Assembly: GCF_002865645.1 (NCBI RefSeq)
Contig: NW_020194594.1
Coordinates: 124,001 to 188,000, forward strand
Length of the DNA: 64,000 nt
Source: Hyaloscypha bicolor E
Lineage: Eukaryota > Ascomycota > Leotiomycetes > Helotiales > Hyaloscyphaceae
Direction: 5' to 3'
A program made the position numbers and the translations under genes. Shown here piece by piece: positions 12,632 through 57,408 of the stretch. Below the pieces are notes generated by a model. It had not been told where the DNA came from. It searched no databases and was given only the letters and a program-made list of their open reading frames with translations. Each line of letters starts with the position of its first letter. The stretch's first letter is position 1.

Positions 12632-12934
12632 TGTGGGAGGGAAACTGTAATAAGACAAAAACCCATATAAAGTACACCAGAGCACAAAACGTGACTTGAT
12701 AGCAAAATAATAAATCAAAAGCGTAAATAGTAAAGCATAAATAGTATATAGTATATAAAAGCTCAATTAATTAAATACTTATAAGGGATTATTCTCTAAG
12801 TCTATAGAAAAACTAGCTTTCTTATATAATTTCCGCAAGTTATATATAAAAGGCTATAGCCTTTACTATATAACCTAAATCTCAAAACCGCTAAAATAAT
12901 ATAATTTTTAATAAGTATAGCCTGCTATATTACA
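12632..12934 (-). repeat. LTR of element E (probable 3' LTR)
   Basis: It reads TGTGGGAGGGAAACTG on the plus strand and ends ...TATATTACA. It aligns without visible length change to the solo LTR (2758-3060, inverted) and to the LTR at 32,760. It is moderately RIP-mutated; a few GC-bearing words such as the first 12 bases survive. Confidence 0.82.
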
Positions 12935-15900
12935 TCCGATCCCCTATTTATTTATACTTGTTCCCTAAGTACCAAAAATAATAGAAAAATTCTACTTAGA
13001 GTTCGAAATAATAAAATATTCAAGATCTTCCTCTATTAGTTAATCTAATTTCTCCTCCGTATACCTAAAATAAGACTTATTACCCTTAAATAGTCTTATT
13101 TCATATTTCCGAACTTGCTTAAAGATAATCCGAATCCGCTTAGCTATATTCTTATACTAAATCTAATATAGTTCTCTATATTAATTAGTATCCGCCTTTA
13201 ATTATTATTTAATTTCTACCTTTATTACAGGATATTAAAGAGGCTTATTATAGTAAATTATATTATAAATTATACTAATATACTTCAAATAAATAGCTTT
13301 TTCGAATTTCGTATTATCTATTATATTTTTAAATTAACTTTTAGTAAGAGGAGAAAGCTCTAGATAAGAGGCTTTAATAACCTTATAGAAGACTTTATTT
13401 TCGTATATTCTATCCTTAATAATAACTAGACTTATTAGAACTATAATAAAAGGCCTATTAAATAGCAAATTATTATTAAGCTATTCTTTAACTTATATAT
13501 TATCTAAGAATTAATACTTTCCTATAATTCCAGACTTATAGATTACCTAGCTAAAAGCATTTATTTATCTAGTTAAATAGACTATATTCAAAGTCTTTTC
13601 TTCTATTATCTTTAGTAAATACTTACTTATTTCCTTAGCTATTTCTAGCTTAAATTTATTAGAAATAAAGAAGTAATTAATATCTTTAAAGAACTTCTTA
13701 TTAAAGATAGTAGCCTTCTTATAGTCTATAAGGAAAATATAGCTAATATTCCGATATTCTTTATTAAGATAGAATTCGCTATTTAAAGCTTTAGTAATAG
13801 CTAGATCTTTAGTATTATTTTTATACTAATTATAATTAATATTTCTAGAAGTAAAGTATTAGGCTAGCTAAGGGTAAATAACTAGATAAATAGGGTACTT
13901 ATTTAATATCTCGTAAAATCCGAGCTATATTAATAGATCTATTATTAAAAGTTAAGAGGCTAAAGTAAAATAACTATTACTAAGATCTTTATATATTAAT
14001 ATATTATTTTTTCGGAAATAAAACTATAATATTTCTATTCCTCTATTAAGAGTTCTTGAATACTAAGCTTTTTAATTTACTTTAAATAATTCTTCTTATA
14101 AATATAGCTATTTATACCTAGATTAATAGTACTAGATTCAGGAATAGGAACTATAGTATTAAATTAGAACTATAAATTAGGGCGGAATTAATTAGAAATA
14201 CGGTACTTATATTTATATTACTTAATTTCCTAGGTTTTAAAAAAGAAATTCCATATTTCCTTATTTATTTAAGTAATGGAAATATATTTCTTATTTTTAG
14301 TAACTTTATAAATCTTAGTAACTAGCTTTAGAATATTCTTAATATCTCGCATATTAATAGAGAAAATATTAGCAAGTTACTAAATATATCCTATATAAGA
14401 AGCTTTAAGGAATTTATTATTAATCCTATAATATTCTTACTTATAAATAGGTTTTATAATACTACTATATATTTCCTTAAAAGTATATTTATCTTACTAA
14501 GTAAGTATTAACTTCTATTTAGTTAGTATTTTATAAATATACTAAATGCCTTTATTAAGTTCTCTGAACTTAATATCCTTAGTTTTTTACTTCTTGGTTC
14601 TAAATATAATTACGGAAATCTTTCTAGATAATATTTTTCTTTTTAGAATAAAGGATTTCTCTTTACTTTTCTTTATTTTACTAATCTTATACTTAGTCTA
14701 ATACTCAGATTTCTACTATTTATTAAAAGCTTTAGGCTTAGTTTACTTTCTATTCTTGCCAGGTTCTTTTTATCTAGTTATACTAGTTCTACTAGCCTTA
14801 CTAGTAGTTTTCTTACTAGGCTTTATTAAATTAGCTTTATTTTTCTTAGCTAGATCTAATTAAGTTAAAGCTAAAATTATAATAGGAGCCTATTCTTTAG
14901 GCTTATCTTAGAAAGCAGGAAAAGGCTTATTACTATAAACTTCTTTAATTAGGATTCCGGAAGTATTAAAGATATATTATTTAGCCTTAAGATTATTAGC
15001 TAATAGTAGCTTAAACTCTAATTCTTTAGGTTCCGAAATAGCTTTAATATACTTAAATATTTTAATAATATCTAATTTAATAAATATACTAGTATTTTAA
15101 TACTTCTTATCCTTAATATACTTTAAAATAGCTTTATTAATTAACTAAATAGCTTTATATACTAAAGCTTTTATCTTAAAAAAAAGTATAATTTCTTATA
15201 GATATTTTTACTAAGATTATTATAAATATTATTAATATATTAGCTAAAAGCTTTATTATATAATATAATTCTATTCTGATTCTTAGTTTCTAGATTATTT
15301 ACTATAATCTTAATCTTATTAAGCTTCTCTTATTTACCTTTAGAAATGCCTTTAATAATATTCTCGAATTTTCTATTATTAGCTTAATAGTTCTTTAGCT
15401 CTTTCTTAGTTAATTCTAGTCTAGTTTTGTTTCTAATAAAGGTCTTTTATTTTAAGAGCTTATTATATATATTATTTAGTTTATTTAGGATATTTATATT
15501 AAATTCGGTAATTATAGCTATCTTTTCTAATATTAGTAAGCCTTCTATAACTACCCAAACTTCTTTAATACTCTAAACTTTAATACTATTAATTTATAGG
15601 CTTTTAATAATATTATAGCTTATAAGAACTAGCTATTATATTTTACTAGCTTAAGAAATTTATACTTTGGCTATTTTATTATTCTTAATAAGTTATAAAG
15701 ATATTATTAATATAATAGTTATAAATTATAGAGTTAAAGGTTTTTGAAATTATAAGAATTTCTTTTAAGTATATTTTAAAATAAAAAATAAATTGAAATA
15801 ATCTTAAATTATATAAAAGTATTATATATATTCGAGTTTTTCTTTCTTTCTAGTAAGAAAACAAAGCTAAAATAGTAGTATATATAATAGAGAAAGTAAG

Positions 15901-18900
15901 TATAATAAATTAGATATATTTAAGGTAATATAATTATAAATTAGAGATAATTATAGAAGGTAAAATATAAAGTTAAACTTCTATTATAGAAAAAAATATA
16001 AATATATATATTTAAGGAAATATAATTAAGGAAATAATTAAGGCAGGTTAAACTAAATAGTAATAATAGAGAAATAAGAAAGTAATATAATAGAAATATA
16101 AATATAATAATAGTATCTAAAATATTAGAATATAAAAAGAAATAATGAAAATTTTATAATATAAATATATTCTAATTTCTTATTTATTTAGAGATATTTC
16201 TATTAACTTAAAGAATAATATAAAAGAAGGGAAATAATATAGGAAATATATAAAAGGTAAGATATATAAATATACTAAAGATATTAGGAAAATATAAAAT
16301 AAGTATTAATAGAAAAAAAGTCAAAATAATAGAATTAAGAAATAATTTAGAATAAGATATTATTTCTTTTAAAACTAATTCGTATTTCTTCCGAAAGCTA
16401 ATTATATTTATTTAGTACTTATTAAAATCGACTTTATATAATATAAAACTATTTAATTAGTTAGAACTTTAAAATTATATTTATATTTATAAAAGTAATA
16501 CTAAAAGTATTAAAATATATAAAAAGAAAAATTATAAGATAATATAAATAGGGTTTATAATACTATTATTAAATTTAAAATAGTTAATATAAAATATAAA
16601 AAGATTAGATATTCCGAATTAGTATTAAAAATATAGGAATTATTTAGATAATATTTAATAATAAGAAATAGATTAATAATAAGAATTAGTAAATTATATT
16701 AGCTTTTTAAAAAAGTAACTAGTTTCTAGTAATAAAATAGTATTATAGTTAGAGAAAGAATTCTATATAGGAGAAGTTTTTTATAGAAATAGAAATATAT
16801 AATATACTAACTAAGCTTTAATATATACTTTTAAAATAGTTATAGTATATACCTTAAATATAGCTATAAGTATATAGGAAAAGAAATAGGTTTTCTAGTA
16901 TAAGATAGGCTTTAAATAAATAAATCTAGTTTATTTAATATCTAAAAAATTCCTAGAATTATATATTATTAAATATTTTTAGAAATAACTATTAGATTTA
17001 ATAAGGTTTTTCTTTTCTCTTATAGGACTTCTAGTTTAGCTATTCTAATTATATATAACTTCTAATTAGAAAGTTTATTTAGATATTATAAGGAAACTTA
17101 TAATAGTAGTTTAAATTAAAGTTAAGATCTATAAATATTATAATTAAGCTTTAGACTAGTATAAGCCATAAGAATAGCTAGTTAAAAAGGCAAGTAATAC
17201 TTTTAAAAGATTTCTAGTTTAGTAAAATATATATAAAAGGCTCTCTTTTTTCTTTTCTTTTCTCTTTATCTCTAAATATAGTTACTATTTATTATTATAA
17301 TTCGGAGTTAAGAATTCGTAAAATAATTTCTTAATTTCTTATTTATTTTTATATTAAAAGAAATACTTTATATTTAATTCTCAAGATCTAATAATAGAAT
17401 TTTATATATTAAGAATATTATCTAATAATAATAATTAGATAATAATAAGAAATAAGTAATAATAAAGTTTATCTAATTTCTAGAATAGTAGTTTAATAAT
17501 AATATTTTTTAAAAGTTATAAATAATAGTTAGAAGAAAAAATAAAAGATATATAAAAAATTAAAAATAATAAGCTTTATTTCAGGTTAGGAAAAGCTTTT
17601 ATTATTAAATACTTTCTTCTAGTTTTTTATAAAAGAAATATACTTTACTTTTTCTAATTCTAGTAATTCTAGAATATATATAATAATACTAGTAGCTTTC
17701 TTAATTTCCTAAATACTATTTTACTTATAATACTTTATAACTACTTTTTTTTCTAGTTCTATATCTATCTTAAAATATTTATTTACAGATATATACTTAC
17801 TATTAACTTTATTTTTAGGGAAATACCAGAATTTATTTCTTTTAATAAATTACTTAAATTAATTCCCGATATATATTCTTTAGAATATAATACTATTAAG
17901 TTCTTCTAGTATATAATATCCTTTTAATTAATCTATATATCTTATTTTATATAGGCTAAGCTAGTAATATAATAGCTTTATATTTCTTAACTTGTCTTAA
18001 TTTATTAATTTAATATTATATATAAGAACCAGATTTTTTTCGGAAATAGACTTTAAATAAATCTAATAAATAATATTAAATTACTCTTTTCTTTTTTAAT
18101 ATTATTTATTCTTTTTTATTCTGGCTTCTTTAATATCTTTATTTCTTATTTATATTTATTTTATATATATTTCCAGAAGCGTTTTCCTATTATAAACTTT
18201 ATTTTATCTAAGTATTCTCTAAGTTAGAAAGTATATTTTAATAAATAATATAGCTTCTTTACTATAAATTATATAAAAGAAAATAAATCCAGTTAGTTTA
18301 TATATAGTAACTCGATTAGTAAATAAAATAAATAGTAATAAATTTATCTAAGGCTTCTTTTTATTTATTATAAGTATAATAAGTATTTAAATAATTAATT
18401 AATATTTTTTTTAATTATACTATTTTCCTTGAAGTTATAGGCTAAAATAATAATTCTATTAATTTCTAGCTTATTAAATTCTTAAATTACTACTTTTTTA
18501 AATTCTAATTTACTATTTATCTTAAGTTATTTAAATAAACTATATTTATAAATAATTTCTTCCTAAATAAACTTAGTAATCTTCTTACTAGTTAGGTTTT
18601 TTAAAAATCTAGCCTTAACCTATTCTGAGAAGTTATTTCTAGTAATAACTAATAAGTTATATTCTTTATAATCTAGTAGTTTAATTATATTAATTCTAAG
18701 GTAATAGAAAAGAAATATAGCTTTTATTAAATATAGCTTTTATTAAATATAGCTTTTATTAAATATAGCTTTTATTAAATATAGCTTTTATTAAATATAG
18801 AACTTCTTTTTATTTTCTTTTAGTTTTATACTAATAAATCTTATAAATATTAATATATTTCTATATATAGTTATAATAATTTTCCTAGTAATAATAACTA

Positions 18901-19111
18901 GCTATTAAGTAAAAGATATTCTTTTTTCTTATATATCTAATCTTATTATATAGCTTTTTAATAATAATTTTCCTTTATTTTAATTATTAATAATAAGCTA
19001 AGGCAGATATATTTTAAATATAACTCTTTATAGTAACTAATCTCTTATATTATAATTTAAAGCTTTTTTTATTTAATTTTTAAAACTTGATTCTAGATAT
19101 TTCTTTTAGTC
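12935..19111 (-). pseudogene. Left internal half of element E: decayed minus-strand reading frames
   Basis: About 6.2 kb, very AT-rich. On the minus strand, 13,000-13,900 reads as a long frame with few stops, for example IFLIDYKKATIFNKKFFKDI and VIKASYLELSPLTKS. 14,700-15,000 reads as a Lys/Ser/Thr-rich linker and 15,200-15,600 as a helical, Asn/Lys-rich stretch. Most interruptions are TAA/TAG, as expected from RIP of CAA/CAG/TGG. I do not recognise the protein. A pentameric 16-bp tandem repeat lies at 18,721-18,800. TAGTC at 19,107-19,111 is the left copy of the duplication made by element A. Confidence 0.5.
18721..18800 (+). repeat. 16-bp tandem repeat, 5 units
   Basis: Five exact copies of CTTTTATTAAATATAG inside the RIP-mutated left half of element E. 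Exact identity in mutated DNA suggests that the array expanded after, or independently of, the mutation. Confidence 0.9.
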
Positions 19112-19414
19112 TATAAGGCACGTAATAGCAGGGTAATACACAAGTAGTTAAGGTAAGTAAGCTACGGAGTAATACTTGCAAGTATAACTGATTCCAAGAA
19201 TTAATTCCAACAAGAGACTAATTAATGCCCCTTTCAAAGCTAGAAGCGTCTCCCTATATATTCCCTAGTACTTAGCCAGGCATGCAAAGCCCTTTACTTA
19301 ATTAGGAAATCCCATGCGATCCATATGATTCCGATTGCAAGCTATACCCAAAATAGGAAACTAGATCTATAATATCTAATACCTGTCTATACGCCATTAC
19401 ATATACCTATTATA
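19112..19414 (-). repeat. 3' LTR of element A
   Basis: 303 bp, the least mutated of the four LTRs of this family: it keeps words such as GCATGCAAAGCC and CCCATGCGATCC that are TA-rich in the partner. Differences from 25,802-26,104 are nearly all C/T and G/A. Confidence 0.88.
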
Positions 19415-20781
19415 TTAACTCCCCCTCTGGGCCCTTATTTCCAAGAGGCCTGGGAAAACTACAAATAGCTTTACAAATATCCCCCTGAAACTTTCCTGGC
19501 CGCTAGCTTTCTCTAAAGACTCCCTATAATTACCCTATTATTATACCAGGTAATAGAGTTAAGGATATAGTTTACTAACCCTTCCTAGCTAGTTTGCAAA
19601 TTGCCTCTAGCGATTCCCCCTCATAAAGGTAGTACGAATATAGTATATACTATTAGATATAAAGCTTATCCGATCTCCTAATTAGTTCGTAAATCCCAAC
19701 TTAGCCTCTATTTGCGAATAAATTATTACTCTATAGGCCCAAGAGCTTGGAAAAGTTAATCTGATCTTCTGGTTTATTTATAAATCCTTTCTTTGGAATT
19801 TTCTGGGTATTTCTGGTATAGAGCCGGTTCCGAATTCGTAATTACTATTTGGGAAGAGGGTATTATAAAAAGGCCTCTCTTTTTCCACTAACTAACCTTT
19901 CTTTTCCTTAATTATAATATTATACCTAGCTTCTCTTTATCCCTTGCCTTTCTTCTTTAAGCCTTCTTTAAGCTCCTTTAAGCTCCTTTAAGCCTTATTT
20001 AAGCTTTATTTAAGTTCCTTTCTAATTTCCTCTTCTACTTCTTTATTTATTAAGATAAATACTTCTCTTAGTACTTATTAGCCTATTACTACCCGTTTGA
20101 CTAATACTCCTATATCCTTAATTTGCCCTTACTATCTTTAATATTCTAAGAATATTACCAAGTTTCCCGACCTCACTTATATTAAGAGTAATAATTACTC
20201 GGTATATAATTATTACCGCTCTAAGAATAAGAAGTATAATCCTATAAGTTATAAATTTCTTCTTTTATTCCTTATTCTAATACTATTTAAGGTTTCTCAA
20301 GCATATATAATATGGTTAAACTGCCTTTTTTAAGCCATTAATATATATAAGTATCTTCCTTATCCTTTGCCCGAAAGAAAGAAGGCTATTACTGCCTTTT
20401 TTCTATACTAAACTATATATATTTCTCGTATTAAAGCTATTATTTGAGGCTAACGGATTTCCCTAATAATCCAAGAAATAAGTTAAGTAATTCTCACTAG
20501 CTTAGTGCAAGTATAAAGTACTCTTAATAATATGGTTAATATTCTTTAGTATTAAGTAAGCTTACTTCTTCCTCGTTTCTTGCTAATAGCTAATAGCTTT
20601 ATAGGCTAATTTGCTACCTGTTTCTCGAGAGAATCCTAATAAGGATAATAATAAGGATAGTAGAGAGTAGTCGCAAGAGTAAAATATTTATAGGATACAG
20701 AAATTAGAGTTTTTAATAATTTTTATATAGTTTTTCCAAGAATAAATATATAGTTTTTTAATAGTTTCCTAATAAAAGCGT

Positions 20782-23700
20782 TTATCTTTTATGCCTCTAT
20801 TTGGCTAATAGTATTATAATATTACTCTTTTTCAAGTATTCTTGTAATTCTTGAGCTATATTCTCCAGATTACTTAGTAGTTCCCATATATTATCCGCTA
20901 GTAAGTAGCCCTTCTAATAAATGAGATACTCTCTTCCTTTTCTGCCCTCTTTATAGGCCATAATAGATTCTATTTCGAATTCCTCTTTGCCCTCGATCTT
21001 GACCGGCTCTGGTTCTACTATAATACTAGCTTGCGGGTATTATGGTTCTAAGAGGGAAATATAGAAAATATTATGGATCTAATATAATAGCGGTAATTTC
21101 AAGTAGTATACCTATCTATATATTCCTATAACTTCCAGAACTTTAAAAGGGCCGAGATATCTATTCGCTAGCTTTATACTAGGTCATAGCTATTAAATAT
21201 TCTTTATATAAAGCATGACTTTATTATATATCTTGAATTCCTTATTAATATATTTCTTATTATAGTACTTTTTCTATATATCTACTATTTCTTGCTATTA
21301 TTTCTCTAGTGCCTCCCGTTTTACTTAAATCCTTTATACTCTTTCCTATATTACTAGTACCCCTTCTTCTGGAATATTATCCTTAATATATAGTTTAATA
21401 CTGGGATGGAATTCATATAAGATATAGAATAGGAATATTCCTATTATTAAATATATAGAGTTATTATATGTAAATTCTATAAGAGTAAGCTTTACTACCT
21501 AGTTATTCTATTAGTAGCTAGTATAGTACCTCAAATATTATTCTAGAGTTTGGTTTAGATTCTTTGTTTATTTATTAGTTTATGGGTAAAATACTATACT
21601 TAGCTATTATTAAATCTTTAAGTAGAAATACAGACTTAACTAGAACTTACTTATAAAAACAGATCCTCTATTAGAGATTATATCTATAGGCGTGCCAAAG
21701 TCTTTAATAATATGGTATATAAATAGCTCTACTAGCTCAAGAGCCGAGACCTTTTTAGTAGTCGGAATATATTATATTATTTTCGTATATCTATTAATAA
21801 TAATAAGTATAGAATTATATACTTTACTATAAAACCTAAAAGGGGGCAGTCCCGTAATAAAGTCTATAGTAATTTCTTGCTATGGCTTAGAGGAGAGGAG
21901 AAATAAACTAAGTATATTATATAGCAGATATCTCTTTACCTTAGTCTATTAATATATAAGACAAGTTCTAATATAGTCTTTTATATTCTTTCTTATATTT
22001 TGCCAGAAGTACTTTCTCTAGAGGATCTCTAGTATCTTACTAGTACCAAAATACCTACCTATAGAATTATTATAGTTAGCTTATAATAATTCTTTTTTAA
22101 GAGGCAGCTTATTTGGTATATAAATAGCGCCCTAATATCTTAATAACCCAGATATATTAAGTTCCCAAGTCTTAATAGCTCTAGTAAAGGTTCTTTTTAA
22201 GAACTATTTATACTACTAGTATTATACTAATAGATTAAGCCTTTAGTACTATAATAGTAATTCAAGTAATATCTCTCTGCTTTTCTCGTATACTATTTCG
22301 GACCCAGCTACCCATATAGCTAGAATCCATAGTATATACTATTTATAACCAGCTATACTAGTAATAGGCTCAAGTAGTAGTATCTCCGGTACTATTCCGT
22401 TACTAAAATAGACTTCCTCTTTAGAATTCCTTAGTATCTCACTAATCGAGAAGTGCCTACCTTCTCTTTTCTGGGCCTTATATTACGGTATTATAGGGAT
22501 AGTATAGCGTCCTATTACCGCTATCTATAGGATTCTCTATTCTGTATTCTATAGCTTATTATAAAATATAGGTAATAAAGTATCTTTATTTATATCTACT
22601 ATAAAGTCTGGCCTCCTTAATAGCCCATTAGCGGAATTATTATACTCTGGCCGGTACTCTAAGACAAAGTTAAAGGCAGCTAGCTCCTTTGCCTATCTTA
22701 TCTATTAACTATTTAGTTTTCTCTTAGTTATAAAGTATTTCAAATTATTATAATCTGTCTTAATAATAATAGTATACCGGGTATATACTAGGTAATACTA
22801 CCAAGTACGGAATACTAGAATAATGGCCAAGAGTTCAGAGTTATATATCTTATATTTACTCTTAATTATAGTTATCTTTTTTAAATAGAAAATAATAGGG
22901 TATTACCTGGCTTCTACCTCTTTACTAAAGAGCTAGGAAATTATACTTATAATTATAAATCCTGAAGTATTCGTTTCTATATAAATCTTTAAGGCTAGGT
23001 CAAAATAATAAAGAATTAGTACTATTATAAATATAATTTATAGCTTCCTAAAAGCCTTATTTACCTCATCCGTCTAGCTAAACTAATATAGTAGTTTTCC
23101 GCTAGTTTTTAGTAAATTAGTTAACCCTTTTACTACCCTGGAATATCTATAAATAAACCTCTAGTAAAAGTTAGTAAAATCCAGGAATACTTGGACTTCT
23201 CGGATATTATTTTTTGGGGCCGGCTATTTCCTAATAGCTATAACCCGGCTAGCCTCTATTTCTATATTATCTGGGCTAATTATAAATCCCAGAAACTCTA
23301 TTCTCTCTATATTAAACTCGTATTTTGCCAAGTTTATAAAGAGCTAGTATTACTATAACTACTCGAGTATATATCGGACTACTATTATATACTATTCTAG
23401 GTTCTCTAAATAAATTAAAATATTATCTAGATAGACTATATAAATAATGTCTATAAGGCCCACTAATATATAGTTAATATATGCCTGAAATATTACCGGA
23501 GTATTAGATAGTTTAAAGGATATAATATAGTACTCAAAATATCTATAGTATATTCGGAATACTATCTTTTACTTATTACTTTCCCGTATTTATAACTAAT
23601 AGTAAGTATTTTTTAAGTCTAGCTTTATATATACCTTTGCTTTATAAAGCCTGTCTATTATCTTACTAATAAGTAGTAATGGCATTTAGTTCTTAATAAT

Positions 23701-25730
23701 AATTCTATTTAGATCCCGGTAGTTAATATATAGATATAGGCCGCCTTCTTTCTTTAGAACAAATATAATTAGGGTACTAGCTAGGCTAATAAAATAACGG
23801 ATTTATTCCTTCTCTAAGCTAGTATTAAGATATTCCCGAAGGACTTTAAGCTTCCTTTCTGACAAAGCATATATAGGACTATATAATAGTTGGAATCCTG
23901 GTTCCAGATCTATATAATACTTTATTATATAGTAGTCGGGCAGTATGCCTATAGCCTTTATAAAGAATACTCGGAAAAGGTCCTAATACTTTCTGGAAAG
24001 TATAGCTATTCTATTTATAGTAATAGTAGTAATTCTTTAGCTATCTATTATAGGATAGGTAATTAATAGAAAAACATATGCCTTATACTTTACTACTTTA
24101 GTAAATTTCCTGGTATTTAGAACTTTAATCTTCTATAGTCAAATCTAGTATCTTTATATTATCTCCCTAAAGGAAATCAGGGAGTTAACCTAGTAAAGCT
24201 ATAGGAATCCAAGTATTATATTAATATAGTTTAGATCGAAATCATATAATATAAAGTATATATTAGTCTTTCTTTAGTTCCCTAGTATATTCTCGGTAGT
24301 AATCCCAAGAATATAATCTCTATATAAATAAATCCTTCTTTCCTCTAGTAAGAATAAGGGAATTGCCCTTAATATTAACGGAATACCTATATCTAAGGCT
24401 AATTTCCTCTTTATATAATTAGCCTCTATACCCGAGTTAACTAATACTCTAATTCTTTACTTACCTTTCCTTATCTTAATAGTAACCTTAATTACTATTC
24501 TCGTTTTAGGGGCCTTGCCCTCTATAGTATAAATAAGTATAACTATTACGGGATATACCCGTTTCCTGGCTTCTTTAATTCTGGATACTTATATGCCTTA
24601 TAGCCAGACTTATTATAATTATAGTAAGTCGGTTTTCCCTAATTTGGGCAAATAGTAATATAGTAACCCTTCTTCTGGCAAATAAAGCAAGTTATATCCG
24701 GTCTTATAGATCCCGATACGGGTACTATATTAGACCCCGTTACTATACTTTTGCTATCCCGGTTATATGAACCTCGTAACGGGGATATATTTCTCTTCCG
24801 TTTCCCTTTATTATTTCCTTTTTCCTTTCTCTAATTTCCTTTTTTTTATTAACCTATTAGCTTATTATTATATTCCTATCAAGTAGACTAGTTTAAGTTA
24901 TTCTTGACTCTTATGGCCGCAGAAATAAGCTTCTCCCTTTCTTATAGAGTATTCCCTTAGTAATTAATCTCGTCTCGAATCTCTTGCCTCAAGCTACTAA
25001 ATAAGTTGTCCTGCTCTTATAATAAACTCGTATATCCCAAGTTATCTAATAGGCTATCCAAGTAGGATATAAAGCTTTGGATACTCTAACCTGGCTACTA
25101 TTTTATATCCTTGAACTTAGTAAGAGTATTATTACTATAATTCTCCGGATCCAAGATAGAATCCTTTATAAACTTAATAAAGGTCTCCCAATTCGTAGTA
25201 TTAATGCTCACTAATTACTTCCTATATTTCCAGATATTCCTAGCTATATTCTTAAAGTAGAAAGTATAATATATAACCTTTACTATATCTGTAGCCCAGG
25301 TAATCCCGCCGTTTTTATACTATTTTAGCTCTACTTAGTAGAAGAAGTCCTGGGCTTCCTTAATACTCTTTCCCTTATAAGTTAGTAATTCTCGGGTTTT
25401 TGGAGCCTTATAAACTAAATATATTACTAGTAGTATAATAGGTTCTATAATAAGTATCCAAATATTCTTAAGATAGTAAATCTGAGCTTCTAAATTCTCT
25501 AGATTCTCCCTCTATTATATCTCTGCTTCTAACTTAGTAATACGATAATGAGCTATTACTAGCTTTTCTATTATTATTATCCTACTAGCTAGTTCTAGAA
25601 ATATCTGAGTTCTACTTCCTTCTCCTAATTAGGCGGTAGCTAGAGTAGCTAACTAGGCGCTCCCCTGGATACCCGACTAGGTTACCCTAGTAATAGTAGA
25701 GGCACTTCTTCTAGTTAATACTCTAGCCAT
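20782..25730 (-). pseudogene. gag-pol relic of element A with C-terminal chromodomain
   Basis: The gag start codon is still present at 25,730 (reading MARVLTRRSASTITRVT) and the tail stop lies near 20,782. A retroviral zinc knuckle CX2CX4HX4C is at 24,689-24,648: three Cys remain and the His codon reads Tyr (CAC to TAC). The RT catalytic motif reads YLDNILIY at 23,433-23,410 (YLDD with the second Asp changed to Asn). A chromodomain is readable at about 21,004-20,833, including EEFEIESIMAY, GRKGREYLIY, KGYLLADNIWEL and SNLENIAQELQEYL, with its second aromatic Trp codon turned into TAG. Chromodomains of this kind guide integration to heterochromatin marked by H3K9 methylation. Many stops make it non-functional. 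Confidence 0.82.
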
Positions 25731-25801
25731 TAGTGGTTTTGTCTATTAATAGCTTAACTACCTCATAATAAACTATTTCCCGAAGATTAGATTAATTAGA
25801 A

Positions 25802-26104
25802 TATAAGGCACGTAATAGTAGGGTAATATATAAGTAGTTAAGATAAGTAAGCTACGGAGTAATACTTGTAAGTATAACTAATTCCAAGAATTAATTCTAA
25901 TAAGAGACTAATTAATACCTCTTCCAAAGCTAGGAGCATTTCCCTATATATTCCCTAGTACTTAGCCAGGTATATAAAGCCCTTTACTTAATTAGGAAAT
26001 CTCATATAATTCATATAATTCCGATTGCAAGCTATACCCAAAATAGGAAACTAGATTCACGATATCTAATACCTGTCTATGCGCCATCACGTGTGCCTAT
26101 TACA
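25802..26104 (-). repeat. 5' LTR of element A
   Basis: 303 bp. On the minus strand it begins TGTAATAGGCACACGTGATG and ends ...GCCTTATA (an expected terminal CA read as TA). It is immediately followed on the right by the duplication TAGTC (26,105-26,109). Confidence 0.88.
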
Positions 26105-46150: not shown

Positions 46151-46559
46151 AATAAAAAGTAATAGTATTTAATTAAATAGAAAGCCTAATCTAAAGATTA
46201 TAATATCTAGTTATTTACTTTCTCTAATCTTAAAAATTCCAAGAAACTTCTAAAATTATATAACTAAAACCATAACTTAGAATCCGAAACTATCTTTTAA
46301 TAATCTCTTAAAATTAAAAAGAATTCTAGACTATTAAGAAAAAGGCTATTTAAAAGAAAGAAAGAACCTAGATAGCTAAGAAAAGACCCGGAATAGTAAT
46401 AGAGATACTCTTTTCCTAGAATTTTTTTATTTATAAAGGTTTTCTAGGATTTTATTAAGGCTTATAAAAATCATATTTAAATTATTAGAAAAAGGTTTAG
46501 AATTAAGAAAAGTTTATTATAAATAAACTAGCTATAGGTATTTCAAATAAATAAATTCT

Positions 46560-47500
46560 AATTCCTATAAATTCCCAATTTCTAAAATAAGAATACCAAA
46601 TACTAGCCCTATTTAGGACTTAGTAAAGAATTAGCTAATACTCTCCGGAATTCGCTTATCTCTTAATAAGATATAGTTATATTATAATAATATTAGTATT
46701 AAGGATATTAAGAGAAGTAAATAAGAAACTTATAATAGCTATATATGCCTTATAAAAGGCCCGAACTTCTAAAGTTAGGTCCCGAATAGCTATAAGTATT
46801 ATATTATTAGTACTTAAAGTATTAGTAGTAAATTATTTAGTAATCTTAGTAATAAGCTTAATAATGAGATTAATATCTTAAAAATAGATATTATAGTATT
46901 TCTTTAAGGAATTAGTAAGTACCTAAGTATATTAGAAAAAACTTATTTTTAGAATACTAATCTAAATAATATTATTATCTGCCTTATTAAAATAGAAAGA
47001 AGAATTCCGAAGCTTATTAGTATTTTTCTAGTCTTTAAAAACCTAATTAATAATATTATTCTTATTAGTATAATACTATTTAGGATATACTTTAAGAAAT
47101 TTCTTAAAGATTATAATAGTATCTTCCCAGAACTAGTAAGCCTCTAATAAGTAGTAAGGAATCTGAAATCGTATTAGCTTTAATAGATATTAAAGCTAAA
47201 GAACTTACTAATATATAAGATTTAGAACCCTTATTATAATAGTTATAATTCTTCTTACTAGATACTATAGTATATAAGGTAAAAGAATTAATAAGCAAAT
47301 ACTTGAAATATTTCAAGTATCTACTAGTAATAGGAAAGAAGGCTATAAGATTACCTTTATACTTATTATTATAGGAATAGATAATAAAGCCAGAAGAAAA
47401 TATTATAGAATTAATTAAAAATAATTAAAAAAGACTTAGAAAAGGGCAGAAAAAGAGGCTAAAAGGCAATAATAGAAAAAGTTATATATATAGTTATTAG
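46560..47500 (+). pseudogene. Possible extra ORF relic downstream of pol in element C
   Basis: Between the end of pol and the 3' LTR, plus-strand stretches such as SEIVLALIDIKAKELTN and LLDTIVYKVKELISKYLKYF (47,165-47,320) read as protein. I recognise no domain. It could be the C-terminal end of pol or a separate ORF. Confidence 0.4.
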
Positions 47501-48045
47501 AAAAAAAGAAAGTATATAGTAATATAAAGAGGTCCTTTTATAAAAATAGAGAACTACCTGGATTAATTACTAGTTTTTATACTAGTCCTAATTAGAAACC
47601 AGTATAACTAATTAATATATATTTCCAGAAGCCTGTAAATAATCTCTAGGATCTCAGAAATATTTATATGGGTTTCTTATATAAATATTTATTAAATACT
47701 TTCTATATAGCTATTTAGATTATTTTAATACGAGATCTAATAGGTAGTATTAATTTTATAGGGTAGTACCTTGGTATTTTGGATTAAGCTAATTAGAATA
47801 CTCAGATCCCAAACGAAATCGCAATTACCGGCTAGCTCCTATATCTGGGATATAATTACCCTTTCTTCTCGCTTACTTAGCCCCGATCTAATTAGACGAT
47901 TTTTATATCTATTATCCAGATTATATTAGCAAAACCATTTCCCAAGATACTAGAAGTTTATATTAATTAAATAAATAATTAATTAAATATTTACCAGAAT
48001 AGATTAATAGATTTTGAGAATAAGATTCTAGGAAGAGAGTATAGT

Positions 48046-48343
48046 TATAATATATATAGGATTATACGTAACTTAAGGATATATAATAAATCTCGGATAT
48101 TGCGGGTATTAATTAGGAAGTTCGGTAGTCCTTTAATATCCCAACTAACTATTATTTATATTATATATATTAGGCTTATAAATTACTAATTATATATATG
48201 CCATCGGGGCCTCCTATTTAGAGGGGGCTTCCCTGGACCTTATAGGAGAAATAGAGATTAGTTCTATACTGAATTTAATACTATGGTTTTATAATATACT
48301 AATTCATTCTATTATCTTATTACTTATTAATAAATATCTTATA
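48046..48343 (+). repeat. 3' LTR of element C
   Basis: 298 bp, TATAATATATATAGG to TATCTTATA, preceded by the purine tract GGAAGAGAG (48,030-48,039) and followed by ATAAT. Confidence 0.85.
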
Positions 48344-48348
48344 ATAAT

Positions 48349-49399
48349 ATATTTCTTTTAAAAAGAACTAATATAGCTATAATATTAATTACTTATATAA
48401 TTAAAGAAAATAACTATATCTATAATTAGATACTAGTATTTACTTATATAGTATATAGTTATTTTTTAAAGATTTAATTAGTTATTTTAATAGAGTTCTA
48501 AAATTAAAAGTAATAAGCTTATTTATAAATAATTTTTATTTCTTTTTTCTTATAAATCTTAATTATTTTTTTTTAAACTCGCTTTTATTATATTATAATA
48601 ATAATATATAAATAAATCTAGAAAAAAGAAAATATAATATAAATAGCTAAAGCTTAAATATAGTAAATATAGTTATATAAGCCTATATATAACTACTAGT
48701 ATATAATTACTATATAATATATTATTATAGGCTAAAATAGAAATATATTTATTATTATTTAGTTATTTAATAAGCTAGTCTATAGCTTTATTTATAGTTT
48801 TAGCCTTAAATCTATAGATTTATATAAACTTGAAAAAGTAGTATTTTAATTACTAGATTTATATATATTCTTTATTCGGATTATATTATAATAGTATTAA
48901 TAATAATAATACTATAATATTAATTAAATATAAATAAAAAGATTCGGAAATTATAAAAATTACAGGAATTATAAAAATTATAGAAAAATTATAGGAAAAG
49001 CTTAAAAATTATAATATATAAGAATTAGACTTATACTATAGTTTACTAGACTAAAAGACTATAGTATTTACTATATAGTAAATATACCTAATTATAGTTA
49101 AATAACTGGATTATAGTTATATAATAGCTATATATAATAATTATATATGAAAATTGCAAAAATTATAAAAAAAGCTTAAAAATATATAAAATATAGGAAA
49201 TATAGGAATATAAAAGTAAATTATATAACTTAGGAAATACTTATATAAAAATTTATTAAATCTAGAATTATATATTTACTAGAATAATAAGATTAAATAA
49301 ATATAATTTCTTTAGTATTTTTCTAAATATTTTTCTTATTATAATAAATATAGTAAATATTTATTTAAATATAATTATTACGAAATAGGCTATACTAAC
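48349..49399. other. AT-rich DNA between elements C and D
   Basis: No coding signal on either strand; extremely AT-rich with many TATA/AATA runs. Probably an older degenerate repeat into which D inserted, since similar composition resumes after D at 57,414. CTAAC (49,395-49,399) is the left TSD of element D. Confidence 0.5.
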
Positions 49400-49604
49400 T
49401 ATAATAGCTAATATAAGAGTATAATTTATTAAGGACAGGATATTAGAAACAGGTATAAAACGAAACTAAGCCAGAATTACTTAGATAGAATAATACTAAA
49501 AATCAAGGCATTTTCTTTACTTTATTCTATAGCTTAGTATTTTCTAATATATAAGATTCTTTAAACTTTAAGCCTTTAATTATTATATTAATCCCGTTAT
49601 TATA
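49400..49604 (+). repeat. 5' LTR of element D
   Basis: 205 bp, from TATAATAGC to CCGTTATTATA. It carries more C-to-T and G-to-A changes than the partner at 57,204. Confidence 0.86.
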
Positions 49605-50099
49605 TAATACTAAACTCTCTTAACTCGGCCTATAGAGGTAATATAATACTACTAGTAAAAAACCTATATTTATTCTTAAAAAGCAAAGATAAAATACTAC
49701 TTTTAATATTTAATAACTTCCTTAAACTATAAAGAACTAGAGAGTTTAATTAGAAATATAATATTCTCTATAATCTAGTTAATTTCGGAGCCTAACCCTT
49801 AACTAGAGCAGATAATATTTCTCTTCTAGTAATTAGTTCTCTACTAATATAAAAGAAGAAAAATATTATTCTCTATAACCTAATTAATCTCGGAGCCTAA
49901 CCCTTAACTAGAGCAAATAATATTCCCTTAATACTAATAAAAATAAAAGAACCGGCCCCTTTCCCTAATATAAGAAGAATTAATAGTAGTCTACTAATTT
50001 AAAATAAGAAAAAATAATAGTTAGTTTTAGTCTACTAACTTAAAACTAGATAAAATAATAATTAGTTATAGTTTACTAATATTAAATAAGAAGAACTTA

Positions 50100-53000
50100 C
50101 TTAGTATTTATTTTTATAGCTAATATCTTTTCTAAAGTTACTATAAATAGCCCGGGGCCAAGTACTATTACTATAGGTATATTAGATAAGAGGCCCTAAT
50201 ATAATAAAACAGAGAAATTGAACTTTAATATTATAAACTCATATTACTAGGAAAGCCATTATAATACTATTTTAAAAAAAGATATTAAAAAATAATTAGC
50301 TAACTTAGAACTCAAAATTAATATAAATATTCCGAAAATAGATAAGGCCTAGCAGAAATTACTTATACGGGATAACCTTATTAATAAATACTATTTTATA
50401 GCTAATAAATAAGTAGAATATTACTAGAAATTTCACTTATATATTAACTAACTTACTAAGAAAGTTAATAAGCTAGAAGTAATTACTAGTTAATTTTATA
50501 TAAGGGAAAGACTAGTATAAGAAGAAGTAATAAAATAAAGATCTAAATAAGTAAATATTTAGGAATACTATAGATTCCCATTAAGAGAACTATTTAGGAG
50601 CTAATACTAAAACTCCCTCCCGCTTTTAGTCTATAGTAATTAATTATAGCTTATTAGAATTAAGAATCCCGCCCTATTTATAAATAAGAATAATTACTAG
50701 ATTAATAATTAGATATTTAATATAAGAAATAAACTAATATAGAACTTCTCTGAATTTAATAGTAAACTACTAAAAATTACTTATATAGTATAACTAGTTA
50801 CCGGAAACGCCCGTAACTTTATTTATAATTAACTAGAATCTGAATTAGTTAGATAAATCTTAACTATTAAATAGATCTTTAAGATCTTCTAGTAAGCTTA
50901 TAGTAAAAATAAAGAAATAAAGTACTAGAAAGTAAAAGAGGTATACCGGTACCTAAAATAAAGAAATAAGCTATTTCTGGTATTCTGGATAGAGTTTATT
51001 TACTTAATAATAAAACTAGAGAAGTTACCGGATAACTAATATAATAATTTAATAAATAAAATAAATCTCGAGCTACTTAAGAGCTTGGGTAATAAGAAGT
51101 TTAATACTTCCAGAGACCTTGCCAAATAGTATATAGAATAAGAAAATAGGCTTCTTTTAATTAAAAATCAGTAATTCCAGAAAAAATAACTAGTAGAAAT
51201 CACTTGCTATTAAATATTACCTCGGGCTAGAAAGCCTACCGGAATTTAAGAAGCTATAGTAATCCTATATCTAGCGAATTAACCTTAATAGCCGGTATTC
51301 TTATAGCTAAAGAAGGCAGTCTGCCTCGAATTTAAGAAGAAATTAGACTAGCCAGAAGGTTTTTATTATTATAGTTATAGAAAGCCTAGATATATAAAAA
51401 GTATTTATCCTGACTTTAATAAAGTTATACTTATTAAAGAGAATTATTTAGAGAAAGCCAATAATTCGGAAATAAATAATAAGAATACTAATTCCTATTT
51501 ATTATCTAATAAGAAATATAATATTAATAAGTCAGGAAAAGTCTAGCTTTAGATATAAAAGTAGCTCTTCTAGAATAAGAACTTTACTAAGAATCTATAG
51601 ATCTTATTTAGTTAATTAGTAGGAACTAGTTCTTTATTAATTATTAAGTATACTAGAAAAGTAAAACTATAATCTTCTAGTATTTAGTAAATACTAGAAT
51701 AAATATATATATATTCTAATTAACTAAAAATATATTTATTCCCTAATAAAAGTACTATAAATATTCTTATATAAACTCAAAACCTCTATCCCTTTATAAG
51801 GTTTTAATAAATAACCTAGTAAAGCTATTTAATATATAGCTATTATAGATCTAGTTATTAATTAATACTCCCAAATTTAATAATATCTATTTACTACTAA
51901 CCTTGGCTTTTATAATATAATCCTAGAAAGGAAATAACTAATAAAGTATAATATCCTACCGGACTATTAACGGAATTAATTCTATTAGCTAGAGAACTAT
52001 AAGACAAATTAGCCGGACCTTATTTAGAAAATCCGATATTTTAATAAAAAATATTAAAAAAATAACTATTTCAAAAATATTCTAACTAGAATCCTAAAAG
52101 AAACTAGTAAAACCAGATCCAAGAAATAAAAAGATATACTTCTTACTCTTTTATAAAACCTTCTTATAAAGAAAGCCAAATACTAGGTAAGAAAAAAAAA
52201 GCTAGACCTTAATATTCTTAAAATAGTCGAGCTACTAGACTATTCCTGCTATTTTATTAGAATAGCTGCCTTCTAATTAAGTACTAAAAACCCCGGTAAC
52301 TTAATCGGATTAGTTACTATTAATGAGATTAATTATATATTTAAGAAATAGAATTATAAACTAAAGAGATATCTATTATTACCTATAGTAATTAGATAAC
52401 TAATATTATAGTTTACTAGATACTATATTTAAACTAGTAACCTAATATATTTTTTAGATATAAATAAACCTAATATCCTTAGTAATATACTATTTTTTAA
52501 TTCTAAAGAACTTTAAGAGTTCCGGATATTTCTTTCTATATAGCTATATAATATAGCTAGGGTATTTTCTAAGAAAGTAGTAAATAAGCTTCCTTAATCT
52601 TAATTCTTTAACTATAAGCTCTATTTTAATAGACCAGACCCCTTAATAAAAATAGTTTACTTTTATAAAATAAGCTCTAGTAAACTCGAAAAAATAAAAA
52701 AGTATCTTATTAAGAACCTAAAAAAGAGTTTTATTAAGCTATCCGAATTTCCCTTTTTATTACTAGTTTTATTTATTAAAAAGAAAGACAATAGCCTATA
52801 ATTTTATATTAACTATTAATAGCTAAATACTATAATAAAAAAGAACTACTATTTCTTACTATTTATTATTAAGACTTTTAATTAATTAGCCGAATTATTA
52901 GTATTTATTAAATTAGATATTTAATATACTTTTAACCGAATTTATATAAAACTAGCTTCTATAATATAAGTAGCTTTTAGGATAAGATATAGATCCTTTA

Positions 53001-55500
53001 AACTAGTAGTTCTACTATTTGGATTCTATAATAGTCTAGTAATTTTCTAGTAATATATTAATATTATTCTAATAGATTATTTAGATAACTTTTATTCGGC
53101 CTATATTAATAATATACTAATCTTTTCCAAGAATAAGAAGAAGTATTAATAGTATATTAGAACGGTTCTATAGAAGCTCTAGGATATCGGATTATAAATT
53201 AATATTTATAAATATAAATTTAAAGTCTCTAAAATAATATTTTTAGGATTTATTATCTCGAATTAAGATATATAAATAGATTCTATTAAAACATTTATTA
53301 TCTAAAACTAGTACTAACCTATAATAAAAAGGGAAATATAGTTGTTTTTGGGCTTCTATAACTTCTATTATAGGTTTATCTAAGCCTATAGATATATCTC
53401 TTACTCCTTAAATTATCTAACTAAAAAGAATACTCTACTAAAGTTTATATTTAATAAAATTTAGCTAGATGCCTTTAATTAGCTTAAAGATCTATTTTTT
53501 TCTATTCTTATATTTCTCTATTTTAAATATAATAGGGAAACCTGTCTAGAAACTGACTATTTAGATCTAGCTATTATAGGTATACTCTCTCAAAAAAGCT
53601 CAGAGAACGAATAATAGTACCCGGTCTCATTCTATTCCAAAGCTTTTTAAGGAGTCAAAAGCTACTATAAAGTTTATAATAAGGAACTTTTTATTATTAT
53701 CTAAGGATTTCGGGAATAGCAAATAGAACTAATTAGCTTACTTAATTTTCTAATTATTACTAACTATAAAGCTCTCAAGTATTTTGGTACTAAGAGGCTC
53801 TTAAATAAATAATAAATCCGATAAATAGATTTCCTATTATAATTCTATTACTAGATTATCTATTAGCCGGGTAAAAATAATACTATTACTAATATCTTAT
53901 CCCGAAAAAATAAGCTTATATTAATTTAGAAATAAACTAAAGAAGCCAAAAAAACTAGATAAGTTATTTTATTAGACCTAATTCTTACTTTTACTAAGAT
54001 AATAGATATAGCTTATATTCCTATTAAAATAGAAGAAATAAATAAGCTATTTATTATAATTAAAGTTCTATAAGCTAATTAGATAAACCCAGTCCTAGAA
54101 AACAAATATAGGAAAGCCCGGAAAAATACGGAACTATAGGAAATATTAAATAGTTATATATTTTATAATAAAAGACTTATTATACTAGATAGATATAATA
54201 ATCTATAAATTAGACTCCTATAACAAATCTATAATATAATAACTATTATATATCCCGGTTAAAATAAAACAAAAATCTTAGTTCGGAAACTTTACTAATA
54301 GCCTACTTTTTCTATAGATATTAACTACTTTATAGTAAACTATTACAAATATTAAAGATCTTATAAGCTAAGAAATAAAATACCAGGCCTATTATATCTA
54401 TTACTAGTTTCCCTAAGAATATAGAATAATTTATTTATAGACTTCTATATTTCTGGTTCTATAAGTAAAGAATATAATAATATATTTATTATAATTAATT
54501 AATTATCTAAATAATATATAAGCCTATTAATAACCAAGAATACTATAGCTAGGACTATTACTGGCCTATTCTATTACTATATCTAGTAATTCCGAGGATT
54601 TTTCCTTATTATTATAAATAACCGAAAACCCTAATTTATTTCAGATTTTATAAATAAACTATTAAGATTAACTAGAATTAAGCTAAAGCTCTCGATTATA
54701 GAATATATCTAAACTAATAAATAAATAGAAATCATTAACTAGATTATTAATACCTGACTTTGTTTTTTTATTAATTACTTTTAGAATAATTAGGCAAATT
54801 TACTTCTGGTATTTAATATTATAGATACCGCTTGCTTATATAAATTAACCGGCTTATTTCCCTTAATAATTAATTATAGATATAAACCCAGGCTAAACTT
54901 TAACTAAATATTACTAATAATAGAATTTAAAATATTAAGAAAGAAACTTAATTAGAAGAAAATATAATAGTAGGCTAAGAGAATTAATACTATTATTAAT
55001 TATACCCGAGAATATATAGTAGTAGTTTAGGAATATTAAGCCAAATAAGCTAATAAGAAATAGTAAGGACCGGATTTTAGTCTAGAAAATATAATCTATA
55101 TAATTAAAAAAATATAGAAAACAGACTATTTATCTAATAAATTAGACTATTTCCTTATTAGACTATTTAAAATTAATAAAATAATTAATTATTTATATTA
55201 ATTAGATCTTTTCCTATTATATAGGATTTGGCTAATTTTTTATATAAATAGACTTTATAAAAATCCTACTAATCTATTATCCGGCTAGACTAATAAAGAG
55301 CCTAGTTTTACTAAACTTAATAGTAAACTTAAATAGGAAGTTAAAAAGATTCTCTCTTCTAAAATACTTTATAATAAGCTTTATTATAAGATTAGATAAA
55401 AGAAATAAGATATAAATAATAAATAGTACCTTATATTAAACTTTAAGAATTTAGTACTTAAACTATATAAATTTTACGAATAGAACCCTAGTAAAATAGG
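50100..55500 (+). pseudogene. gag-pol relic of element D
   Basis: gag occupies about 50,100-51,500. Its zinc knuckle (51,367-51,408) keeps the CX2CX4HX4C spacing exactly, but all three Cys and the His are now Tyr (TGT and CAT both to TAT). RT is recognised at 52,720-53,130, with a readable FYINY-like stretch and the box YINNILIFS at 53,102-53,128 (expected YIDD). RNase H-like and integrase-like sequence follows to about 55,500. Stops are frequent. No chromodomain was recognised. Confidence 0.72.
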
Positions 55501-56129
55501 ACCTCCTATTTAGTTAAATAAATAGATTTAGTATACTAAAAATTTTTTTTTAATAAAGATTACCCAGATAATAATAAACCTTAATAATAAGGCTTCTATA
55601 ACTAGAAAAAAAGAAAAAAAATCTAGATATTTCCCGGGTTTTATCTAAACCCTAATATATTTCTTTTATTTTATTATATTAATATCTATTTTTTTTTATA
55701 GAAATCTGGGCAAAATATCTTTCTTTATTATACTAGATTATACTTTACTATCTAGGTAAATTATAAAAAAAAAGTGAATTCTTAAAGCTAAATTAAAAAT
55801 AAATACTTACCTATATTAGTTCGAAATATTATTAAAAATTAAGAGAAACCTTTCTAATTACTTTAATCTTTATAACCTCAACTATTTATATTACTACTAC
55901 TGCCTTAATAGAACTATTAATAAAGATAAAATAAATAAGAAATCCCGGTAATATATTATCTATAGCCGGACTAAATAAAGCTACTTACTAGATTCTAGAT
56001 AACTTAAGTAGTAGTAGCAGTATCTCAAGTTTAGTAGCTATTACTATTATTAATATAACTACTAGCTAAACTATTTTTATAGACGAAAATAGCAATTTCC
56101 TTATCTAAGAATAAATTAATATATAGAAT

Positions 56130-57150
56130 ATAGCTCATATTACTCTTGAGAATATACCTGAAATTATTATAGAGAATATCTTAGTAAAATATTCTAAGAA
56201 TAATAAAATAAAGGTTTTAGTTATTAGTAATAATAAGTCTAATAGTTAAATAGGCGGAATAGATAGTACTAATAAGGGCTATCTAATTAACTTTATAGAG
56301 CCAAATACTAAGAAGGCAAAAAAGAGTAAGGCTAGCTTATCTAAAAAATATAAGGTATTAGATAATAATAAGAATTCTAATAATAAAAAGACTAAGGACG
56401 GAAAAACTTCTAGTAATAAAGAAGATTCTAACTATAATAAAGGTAGCTAAACTAGTATTAAGATACTTATTATAACTAGAAGATATATAGTACTAAGTAG
56501 TAGTTATTATATAAAGTACTAGTCTGAAACTAAAAGCTAGTAAATAATTCTAAAGGCCGAATTAAAGAAGTAATATCCTATAGATATTAATAAATTAGTA
56601 AATAATACTATTTAGGAAGTCGGAAAATCTTTTAGAAGTTTCTATAAAACCAAAATTATATAGCTTAAGGCCCGGGAATTTGATAATAAAGTAGCTCAAG
56701 TAATTGCTCTTAATATATAAGTTTCTACTATAGAGAGATAACTTGAGAATATATATATTAAGCTCGAAAAGGCCCAGAAGTTAATTAAGTAGCTCAGAAA
56801 CGGTATAATTAAGCCAAATGCCGCTATCCTAATTAAGAAGAAAGGCAAGTAAGCTATTATATTAAAGCTTGTATTAACGGATGAACTTGATCTGCTATCC
56901 CTATTTAAAGACCGCCCGATAATAATAGTCCTAATATTGGCTATGGCCTATATGGTACTTCCAGACTATATTATTAATATGAGTATAGGTATAATACGAG
57001 TAATAGATACTAAGAACTAGCCGGAATATACTAGGAACTGGGTTATTCTAGTAGAGTCAAGACTATACTTTGATTATAAGTAAGCTATAGGAATTAGACA
57101 GAATAGGATTAATGGCCGTTATTTCCTCTTTTTTCTTTTCTATACTGCGG
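56130..57150 (+). pseudogene. Additional ORF downstream of pol in element D
   Basis: One plus-strand frame runs for roughly 330 codons between pol and the polypurine tract, broken mainly by TAA/TAG that correspond to RIP of Gln/Trp codons. The N-terminal part is rich in Asn/Asp/Lys/Ser (EPNTKKAKKSKASLSKKYKV). The middle is helical (ENIYIKLEKAQKLIK). The C-terminal part is well preserved (KLVLTDELDLLSLFKDRP) and followed by a hydrophobic stretch IIIVLILAMAYMVLP (about 56,920-56,964). Position and hydrophobic segment recall env-like third ORFs of some gypsy elements, but I see no fusion peptide or cleavage site and cannot name a family. Confidence 0.55.
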
Positions 57151-57203
57151 CTGAATAATTCCCTAAATAAGGGTATTTAGACTTCTCTTTGGGAGGGGGG
57201 TAA

Positions 57204-57408
57204 TATAATGGCTGGTATAAGGGTATGATCTATTAAGAATAGGATATCGGAAACAGGTATAAAACGAAGCTAAGCCAGAATTACTTAAACGGAATAATAC
57301 TAAAGGTCGAGGCATTCTCTCTATTTTGTTCTATAGCTTAGTATTTTCTAATATATGAGATTCTTTGAACTTTGAGCCTTTAACTATTATATTAATCCCG
57401 CCATTATA
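57204..57408 (+). repeat. 3' LTR of element D
   Basis: 205 bp, from TATAATGGCTGGTATAAGGG to CCGCCATTATA. It keeps GC-bearing words such as ATCGGAAACAGG, GGTCGAGGC and CCGCC that are mutated in the 5' LTR. Confidence 0.88.

Follow-up and report, generated by a model that had tools for sequence, protein, structure and literature searches.

The AT-rich isochores of Leptosphaeria maculans are a known genome architecture. We analysed an AT-rich block of about 47 kb in the ascomycete Hyaloscypha bicolor E, at positions 11416-58356 of a 64,000-nucleotide stretch of contig NW_020194594.1 (positions 124,001 to 188,000; here called the window, C34:124001-188000 in an 82-Mb genome of 76 contigs, which we denote by C numbers). 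For Pyrenophora teres, the part of the report available to us describes comparable AT-rich, repeat-filled isochores between GC-balanced, gene-rich regions, with nested insertions and repeat-induced point mutation (RIP) (PMC5915480). The block in the window consists of nine elements (G, H, J, E, A, F, C, B and D), each flanked by an exact target-site duplication (TSD), with a nesting depth of three. Our interpretation, to which we assign a probability of roughly 94%, is that the whole block is one small DNA transposon, G, which was split repeatedly by younger retrotransposons and altered by RIP-type mutation.

The closest described counterparts of G are the Ginger transposons. As far as the accessible text of the description goes, Ginger2/Tdd elements have terminal inverted repeats (TIRs) of about 50-180 bp, 4- or 5-bp TSDs, TGTNR termini and a target preference for RTATAY, and Ginger1 prefers CCGG or CCGT/ACGG as TSD (PMC2836005). 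Ginger-2 is among the transposons listed for the ascomycete Metarhizium brunneum in the available part of another report (PMC11457142). By titles among the matches listed, no Ginger-type element in Helotiales or Leotiomycetes was apparent in the literature.

Results

Limits of the block and its host element

G extends over 11416..58356, with its transposase on the minus strand. Its own sequence of about 2918 bp is distributed over five pieces (11416-12001, 12579-12631, 33067-33351, 48349-49399 and 57414-58356), and an exact 4-bp TSD, AAGC, is present at 11412..11415 on the left and 58357..58360 on the right. A sequence-only reading of the window had described the block as five LTR elements, two of them nested, within about 45 kb (12632-57408). 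The five elements and the nesting of A and B held. The limits turned out to be wider, E, C and D are nested as well (in G), and four more elements are present (G, H, J and F), three of them short insertions.

Other copies of the elements were taken from the same genome (L048-L055 are fetched loci). The G pieces were colinear with the copies L049, L048 and L051. Compared to L049 on C42, they matched consecutive pieces (11442-12001, 12571-12631, 33071-33349, 48349-49398 and 57409-58313) with small internal length differences. Elsewhere in the genome, the C-D spacer and the sequence right of D adjoin within a single repeat. When the flanks were joined at H, E, C or D, the joined sequences aligned to L049, L048 and L051 with gap 0 and 79-88% identity. 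Since the spacers are colinear with G and the joins leave no gap, we concluded that H, E, C and D are nested in G and that the spacers are not neutral sequence.

These results bear on a picture in which five independent LTR elements lie side by side in an AT-rich spacer, two of them nested, with no shared host element. The exact TSDs and LTR pairs of all five elements are in agreement with it, but the spacers and both block edges correspond to successive stretches of a single repeat found at other loci, the joins at H, E, C and D refute independence of the elements, and the transposase pieces of G follow a single order over the whole block. We regard this picture as very improbable.

Four other G copies with both ends are 2899-2975 bp long, with the ends TGTTCACG...CGTGAACA or near that, and the TIRs of the C42 copy comprise 188 bp that match at 94%. 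Among eight G copies, an exact 4-bp TSD was present in all five with both full ends: AAGC in the window, GGCC on C42, GTTC on C3, TCTC on C22 and GCTC on C54. L048, L050 and L051 were left out of this count, as their full ends were not found; the diverged ends of L051 are both flanked by TTAC, as read by eye. G would be expected to move by a cut-and-paste mechanism. All five TSDs end in C, a possible target preference, although five copies are few. The stretches 48590-48720 and 49028-49150 of G are absent or in other copy number in many G copies and resemble small tandem duplications. In L050 (C71:491600-495800) the G copy carries a C-family insertion, though not at the site occupied in the window, and a D-family element adjoins.

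Remnants of the G transposase

We searched for relatives of the transposase with a frame of the C22 copy of G. Of 7993 scored candidates, three proteins matched at E <= 0.001: P0122 and two proteins of Hyaloscypha sp. PMI_1271. The G frame is 31% identical to P0122 over 477 columns. P0122 matched rve (E 1.8e-9) and, slightly below the curated cutoff, H2C2 (E 3e-5; 24.4 bits, cutoff 25.5), and it resembles PFV integrase (E 2.6e-15).

In the window, tblastn with these proteins located remnants of the transposase in the G pieces, all on the minus strand. The N-terminal part is at 57496..57982 (P0121, E 5e-22) and the integrase core at 48721..48819 (P0121, E 6e-4). C-terminal parts were found between H and E at 12571..12631 (P0123, E 1.5e-6), by a match that extends to 12666, 35 bp into the E LTR, and at 11549..12020 (11904-12020 and 11549-11845; P0123, E 9e-9, and P0122, E 1e-6). 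The last 19 bp of the match at 11904-12020 fall in H. The remnants run in N-to-C order from 57982 to 11549, so that a single gene is cut by D, C, E and H across 46 kb.

By its features, G appears to be an integrase-type, Ginger-like DNA transposon. We placed it under neither Ginger1 nor Ginger2, because it departs from them in the fifth base of its termini and in its target preference. IS481EU, IS3EU and GingerRoot were also considered, by description only, from the accessible part of a further source (PMC10045372).

LTR pairs and target sites

E, A, B, C and D each possess two long terminal repeats (LTRs) in direct orientation. The LTRs were recovered by self-BLAST, are equal in length within each pair, as had been claimed before, and aligned end to end with 0 gap columns. 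Those of E (12632-12934 and 32760-33062), A (19112-19414 and 25802-26104) and B (34107-34409 and 40787-41089) have 303 bp each, those of C (33352-33649 and 48046-48343) 298 bp and those of D (49400-49604 and 57204-57408) 205 bp. LTR ends were set from the sequence and, for all elements but B, also from other copies of the family. Nine further LTRs of the C family fixed where the C LTR starts, and the C75 copy, through its 3' LTR, fixed where it ends; the TSD was not used. A first guess from pairwise alignment, which put the 3' end of C at 48378, was ruled out by the C75 LTR, which gives 48343 as the LTR end; ATAAT is right. The ends are mostly TA...TA, and TG or CA is kept in some copies of A, C, D and E. 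No clear TGG-type tRNA primer binding site was seen after the 5' LTRs when these were read by eye.

The TSDs are exact in all five elements, 4 bp in E and 5 bp in the others, and each of the five words given by the sequence-only reading was correct: ATAC for E (12628-12631 and 33063-33066), TAGTC for A (19107-19111 and 26105-26109), CTTCC for B (34102-34106 and 41090-41094), ATAAT for C (33347-33351 and 48344-48348) and CTAAC for D (49395-49399 and 57409-57413). Random pairs of positions in the block had an exact word in common at a frequency of 0.0146 for 4 bp and 0.0053 for 5 bp (200,000 pairs each). Five matches by chance would therefore have a probability of about 1e-11.

The long retrotransposon E

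E (12632..33062, minus strand) is 13,139 bp long net of its guests A and F. Copies on C22 and C32 measure about 13.10 kb and 13.17 kb, respectively, as judged from LTR positions. Both are colinear with E throughout (86-88% identity) and are bounded by an LTR on each side. The C22 copy matched Ty3 reverse transcriptase (RT)-RNase H (PDB 4ol8, E 7e-8) and Ty3 Gag-Pol (7q5b, E 3e-7), and the Pfam family RT_RNaseH matched the C22 copy (E 5e-6) as well as the C32 copy (E 2e-5). The corresponding region maps roughly to 26.85-28.1 kb in the window. By its Ty3-type RT and RNase H, E is predicted to belong to Ty3/gypsy.

Other parts of E gave no matches. An integrase downstream of RNase H was not detected by Pfam or PDB searches in the C22 and C32 copies, both of which are heavily mutated. 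The 3' part downstream of pol, about 5 kb long, had no Pfam match on the minus strand of two copies or on the plus strand, for which one copy and 3 kb of a second were covered, and PDB searches with the minus strand of part of one copy gave no match for the 3' half. No open frame could be defined in the 3' region by comparing stops between copies (five copies for pol, nine for the 3' region), because mutation is saturated and nearly all stops are common to the copies. A protein search with the RT region of E returned none of 7987 scored candidates at E <= 0.001. The 3' region is rich in short tandem repeats. Base skews are reversed at 15900-17500 (GC skew +0.39 at 16001-17000), which could mark an antisense segment.

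Could E be two solo LTRs, or two different elements, framing 20 kb by chance? At 13 kb, E would be long for a fungal Ty3 element, and the 5 kb at the 3' end have no Pfam match on either strand. Against this stand the two copies that are colinear throughout with LTRs at both ends, the ATAC duplication common to both window LTRs, and the finding that the 3' and pol regions adjoin at the expected spacing elsewhere, e.g., on C13, C19 and C73. A chance arrangement is hardly credible on these data, and we treat E as one element.

The TSD of E was checked in eight copies. Three of these were left out, C69 because its second LTR was doubtful, and C70 and C29 because the predicted position held no good second LTR. 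Four of the five copies with both LTRs confirmed (window, C22, C19 and C1) have an exact 4-bp TSD, and in the fifth (C32) the two words differ by one transition. In contrast, the A, C, D and F families have TSDs of 5 bp.

Two elements are inserted in E. A (19112..26104, minus strand, 6993 bp) has the domains RVT_1, RNase H, H2C2, SH3_Tf2-1 and Chromo in one minus-strand frame, which is broken by stops; its integrase is known from the zinc-binding domain and SH3, with no rve match. F (26201..26489) is a solo LTR of 289 bp, little mutated (GC 41%), with the TSD TTAAG at 26196-26200 and 26490-26494, which begins 86 bp past the right TSD of A. Among 40 matches listed, at least six same-strand pairs of F-family LTRs extend over 6.28-6.44 kb, the arrangement of full-length elements. 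The C22 and C32 copies of E are uninterrupted at the A site, which bears out the earlier claim that E preceded A. Joined flanks of A (60+60 bases) aligned to both copies with gap 0; for one of them the alignment covers just 92 of the 120 bases, since the fetched piece stops there. The corresponding test for F also gave gap 0 in both of two copies.

A repeat of about 310 bp in the left flank of the block (about 2754-3063, minus relative to the E LTR) is 68-76% like the E LTRs. It has at least 39 other genome matches at 83-93%, and among the matches listed none are paired within 20 kb. It is possibly a solo LTR of an E-related family.

Elements C, B, D and the short insertions

C (33352..48343, plus strand) is inserted in G and measures 8004 bp net of B. 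It matched RT_RNaseH (E 2e-8), SH3_Tf2-1 just below the cutoff and, weakly, H2C2, with no RVT_1 match. D (49400..57408, plus strand, 8009 bp), also in G, matched RVT_1 (E 5e-10) and RT_RNaseH (E 2e-12). By these RT and RNase H matches, both are predicted Ty3-type LTR retrotransposons. About 155 bp of C (43869-44023) have no counterpart in the C75 copy, the one copy compared.

B (34107..41089, plus strand, 6983 bp) lies within C. Self-comparison of the window showed A and B to be members of one family that lie in opposite orientation. By the order in A of RT, RNase H and integrase followed by a chromodomain, this family is a Ty3 chromovirus. The C75 copy of C is uninterrupted at the B site, and the joined flanks of B aligned to it with gap 0 (1/1), so that C preceded B, as had been proposed. 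At all tested nests, joining the flanks across the TSDs made the host continuous with other copies, which was the check that the sequence-only reading had proposed.

H (12002..12573) is a short LTR-like insertion in G with 180 bp of its own, the ends TATTACG...CGTAATA and the TSD CTTAA (11997-12001 and 12574-12578). In L052, a polypurine-rich stretch precedes the same H start. H is split by J (12065..12451), a solo LTR-like insertion of 387 bp with TG...CA ends and the TSD CGACT (12060-12064 and 12452-12456). The J-in-H test gave gap 0 (1/1), and an exact 5-bp TSD was present in all five J copies examined (window and L052-L055). J has at least 13 other full-length matches that are 97-99% identical; the rest among the matches listed are 83-95% identical.

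Mutation pattern and apparent age

The five LTR pairs differ in 157 of 1412 columns (about 11%), and all 157 differences are transitions. The changed C is in CA or ambiguous CA/CG context in 88 cases and in CT, CC or CG context in the remaining 69. Between A and B, 723 transitions and one transversion were counted over 6187 columns. The composite RIP index was +0.93 to +1.42 in all ten mutated block segments measured (280-7599 bp), compared to -0.49 and -0.76 in the two flanks. The block carries the signature of RIP, that is C-to-T changes on both strands of repeats with a CA bias, and the heavy RIP-type mutation named by the sequence-only reading is borne out by the indices and by the transition-only LTR differences. 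Ordinary long-term mutational decay is the other possible cause of the AT-richness. RIP was not directly observed, and the 69 changes in CT, CC or CG context would suit decay. However, transversions make up 0/157 differences between LTRs and 1/724 between A and B, and the CA bias and the RIP indices also speak against decay. We judge decay to be a very unlikely cause and favour RIP-type mutation.

GC content was 41-50% in F, J and H, 30% in A, 23-24% in B, D and most of C, 17-18% in E and 13-34% in the G pieces. F, H and J are little mutated compared to their hosts (13-34%), as would be expected if RIP acts on longer repeats or if these insertions are recent.

The 11% divergence of the LTRs is best read as RIP and not as age. 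Zero transversions in 1412 columns set a 95% upper bound of about 0.2%; if twice as many ordinary transitions are assumed, non-RIP divergence is less than about 0.64%, at least 17 times below the apparent value. Transversions per site, taken from the best aligned segment of each copy pair, were 0.0002 between A and B, 0.0006 and 0.0015 between these and other copies, 0.0003 for C, 0.0035 and 0.0042 for D and 0.0061-0.0073 for E. G values ranged from 0.0013 to 0.043 in 13 short comparisons and were highest with L051. The divergence of the E family above that of A and B is in line with insertion of E before A, but it is a family divergence and does not date insertions.

Flanking genes

An esterase gene at 62323-62952 encodes a protein 88% identical to one from Stipitochalara longipes (Helotiales), the best match with a named source, and two metagenome proteins are closer (96% and 93%). 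Hyaloscypha, the source of two of the G transposase matches, belongs to the same order. An open frame of 845 amino acids at 5325-7862 on the minus strand is NACHT-type NTPase-like by the look of its sequence. Rfam gave no match at gathering thresholds.

Discussion

Nine elements, nine TSDs, continuity of the host at every nest and LTR differences that are transitions only were observed at this locus. Several points weigh against our interpretation. Pfam searches with six frames of three G copies (X at stops) gave no transposase match. The G copy L050, itself interrupted, aligned at 62% to the joined flanks at H and E and at 76% to those at C; due to this low identity it tests the D site only (92%). 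The left TIR of G in the window is shortened by about 115-130 bp, and small internal length differences exist. The putative assignment of H as an LTR comes from its termini, its TSD and one polypurine-like neighbour, and H and J appear here as short single insertions, with no full-length element. RIP as the agent and the targeting of insertions are read from sequence signatures.

A likely course of events is as follows. G, a Ginger-like transposon of about 2.9 kb with an integrase-type transposase, would have landed between genes and duplicated AAGC. The Ty3-type elements E, C and D and the short LTR element H would then have entered G at four separate sites, followed by A and F into E, B into C and J into H, with each insertion producing a 4- or 5-bp duplication. 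F, and probably also H and J, would be solo LTRs left by LTR-LTR recombination. RIP may then have caused C-to-T changes on both strands of the long repeats, lowering them to 13-34% GC, and mostly spared the short single LTRs F, H and J, which may be too short for efficient RIP or too young. RIP-associated heterochromatin together with the chromodomain of A and B could have caused the insertions to pile up.

The order is fixed along the nests only: G was in place when H, E, C and D inserted, E preceded A and F, C preceded B, and H preceded J. No relative order among H, E, C and D can be derived. The C32 copy of E sits within an LTR of the A family, and that of C on C75 within an LTR of the D family (TSD GTAAA). 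These nestings imply that the insertion order holds locally only and that the families were active over overlapping times.

We consider it possible, but rather unlikely, that RIP-mutated G served as a heterochromatic landing pad, which was hit repeatedly by Ty3 families, including the 13.1-kb Ty3-type E with its 4-bp TSD and about 5 kb without a match 3' of pol, and so seeded an expanding AT-rich block. Four independent entries into the 2.9-kb G, and a second G copy (C71) that also has a C-family insertion, would fit this idea.

The block demonstrates that AT-rich fungal DNA can be read as an exact insertion history, with a TSD bounding each element and the hosts continuous without their guests. 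Dating by LTRs is misleading under RIP, as 11% apparent divergence came with no transversions. The block edges are the ends of one small transposon, which suggests how such blocks may nucleate.

Nested, RIP-mutated repeats in AT-rich blocks of ascomycetes are already known; the less ordinary parts here are the Ginger-like host transposon G and the element E. A and B resemble Ty3 chromoviruses in having RT, RNase H, an integrase zinc finger, a Tf2-1-type SH3 and a chromodomain in one frame, and a 5-bp TSD, and apart from the frame broken by stops they show nothing unusual. To judge by the accessible text on Ginger2/Tdd (PMC2836005), G is similar in its H2C2 and DDE integrase-type transposase, as seen in its relative P0122, in its TIRs of about 190 bp, slightly above the published range, in its 4-bp TSD and in its TGT... 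ends. It differs in its termini, which are TGTTC where unmutated instead of TGTNR (four of five letters fit), and in its target sites, since none of the five TSDs fits RTATAY. The CCGG or CCGT/ACGG preference that the same text gives for Ginger1 is likewise matched by none of the five (PMC2836005). The block as a whole is AT-rich, nested and RIP-type mutated like the ascomycete isochores in the available description (PMC5915480), and a report on Leptosphaeria maculans, likewise available in part, provides a second system for comparison (PMC4210507). Unlike those isochores, one block is here fully resolved, insertion by insertion: nine elements are accounted for, each with an exact TSD, and one of them, the host transposon, frames the block.

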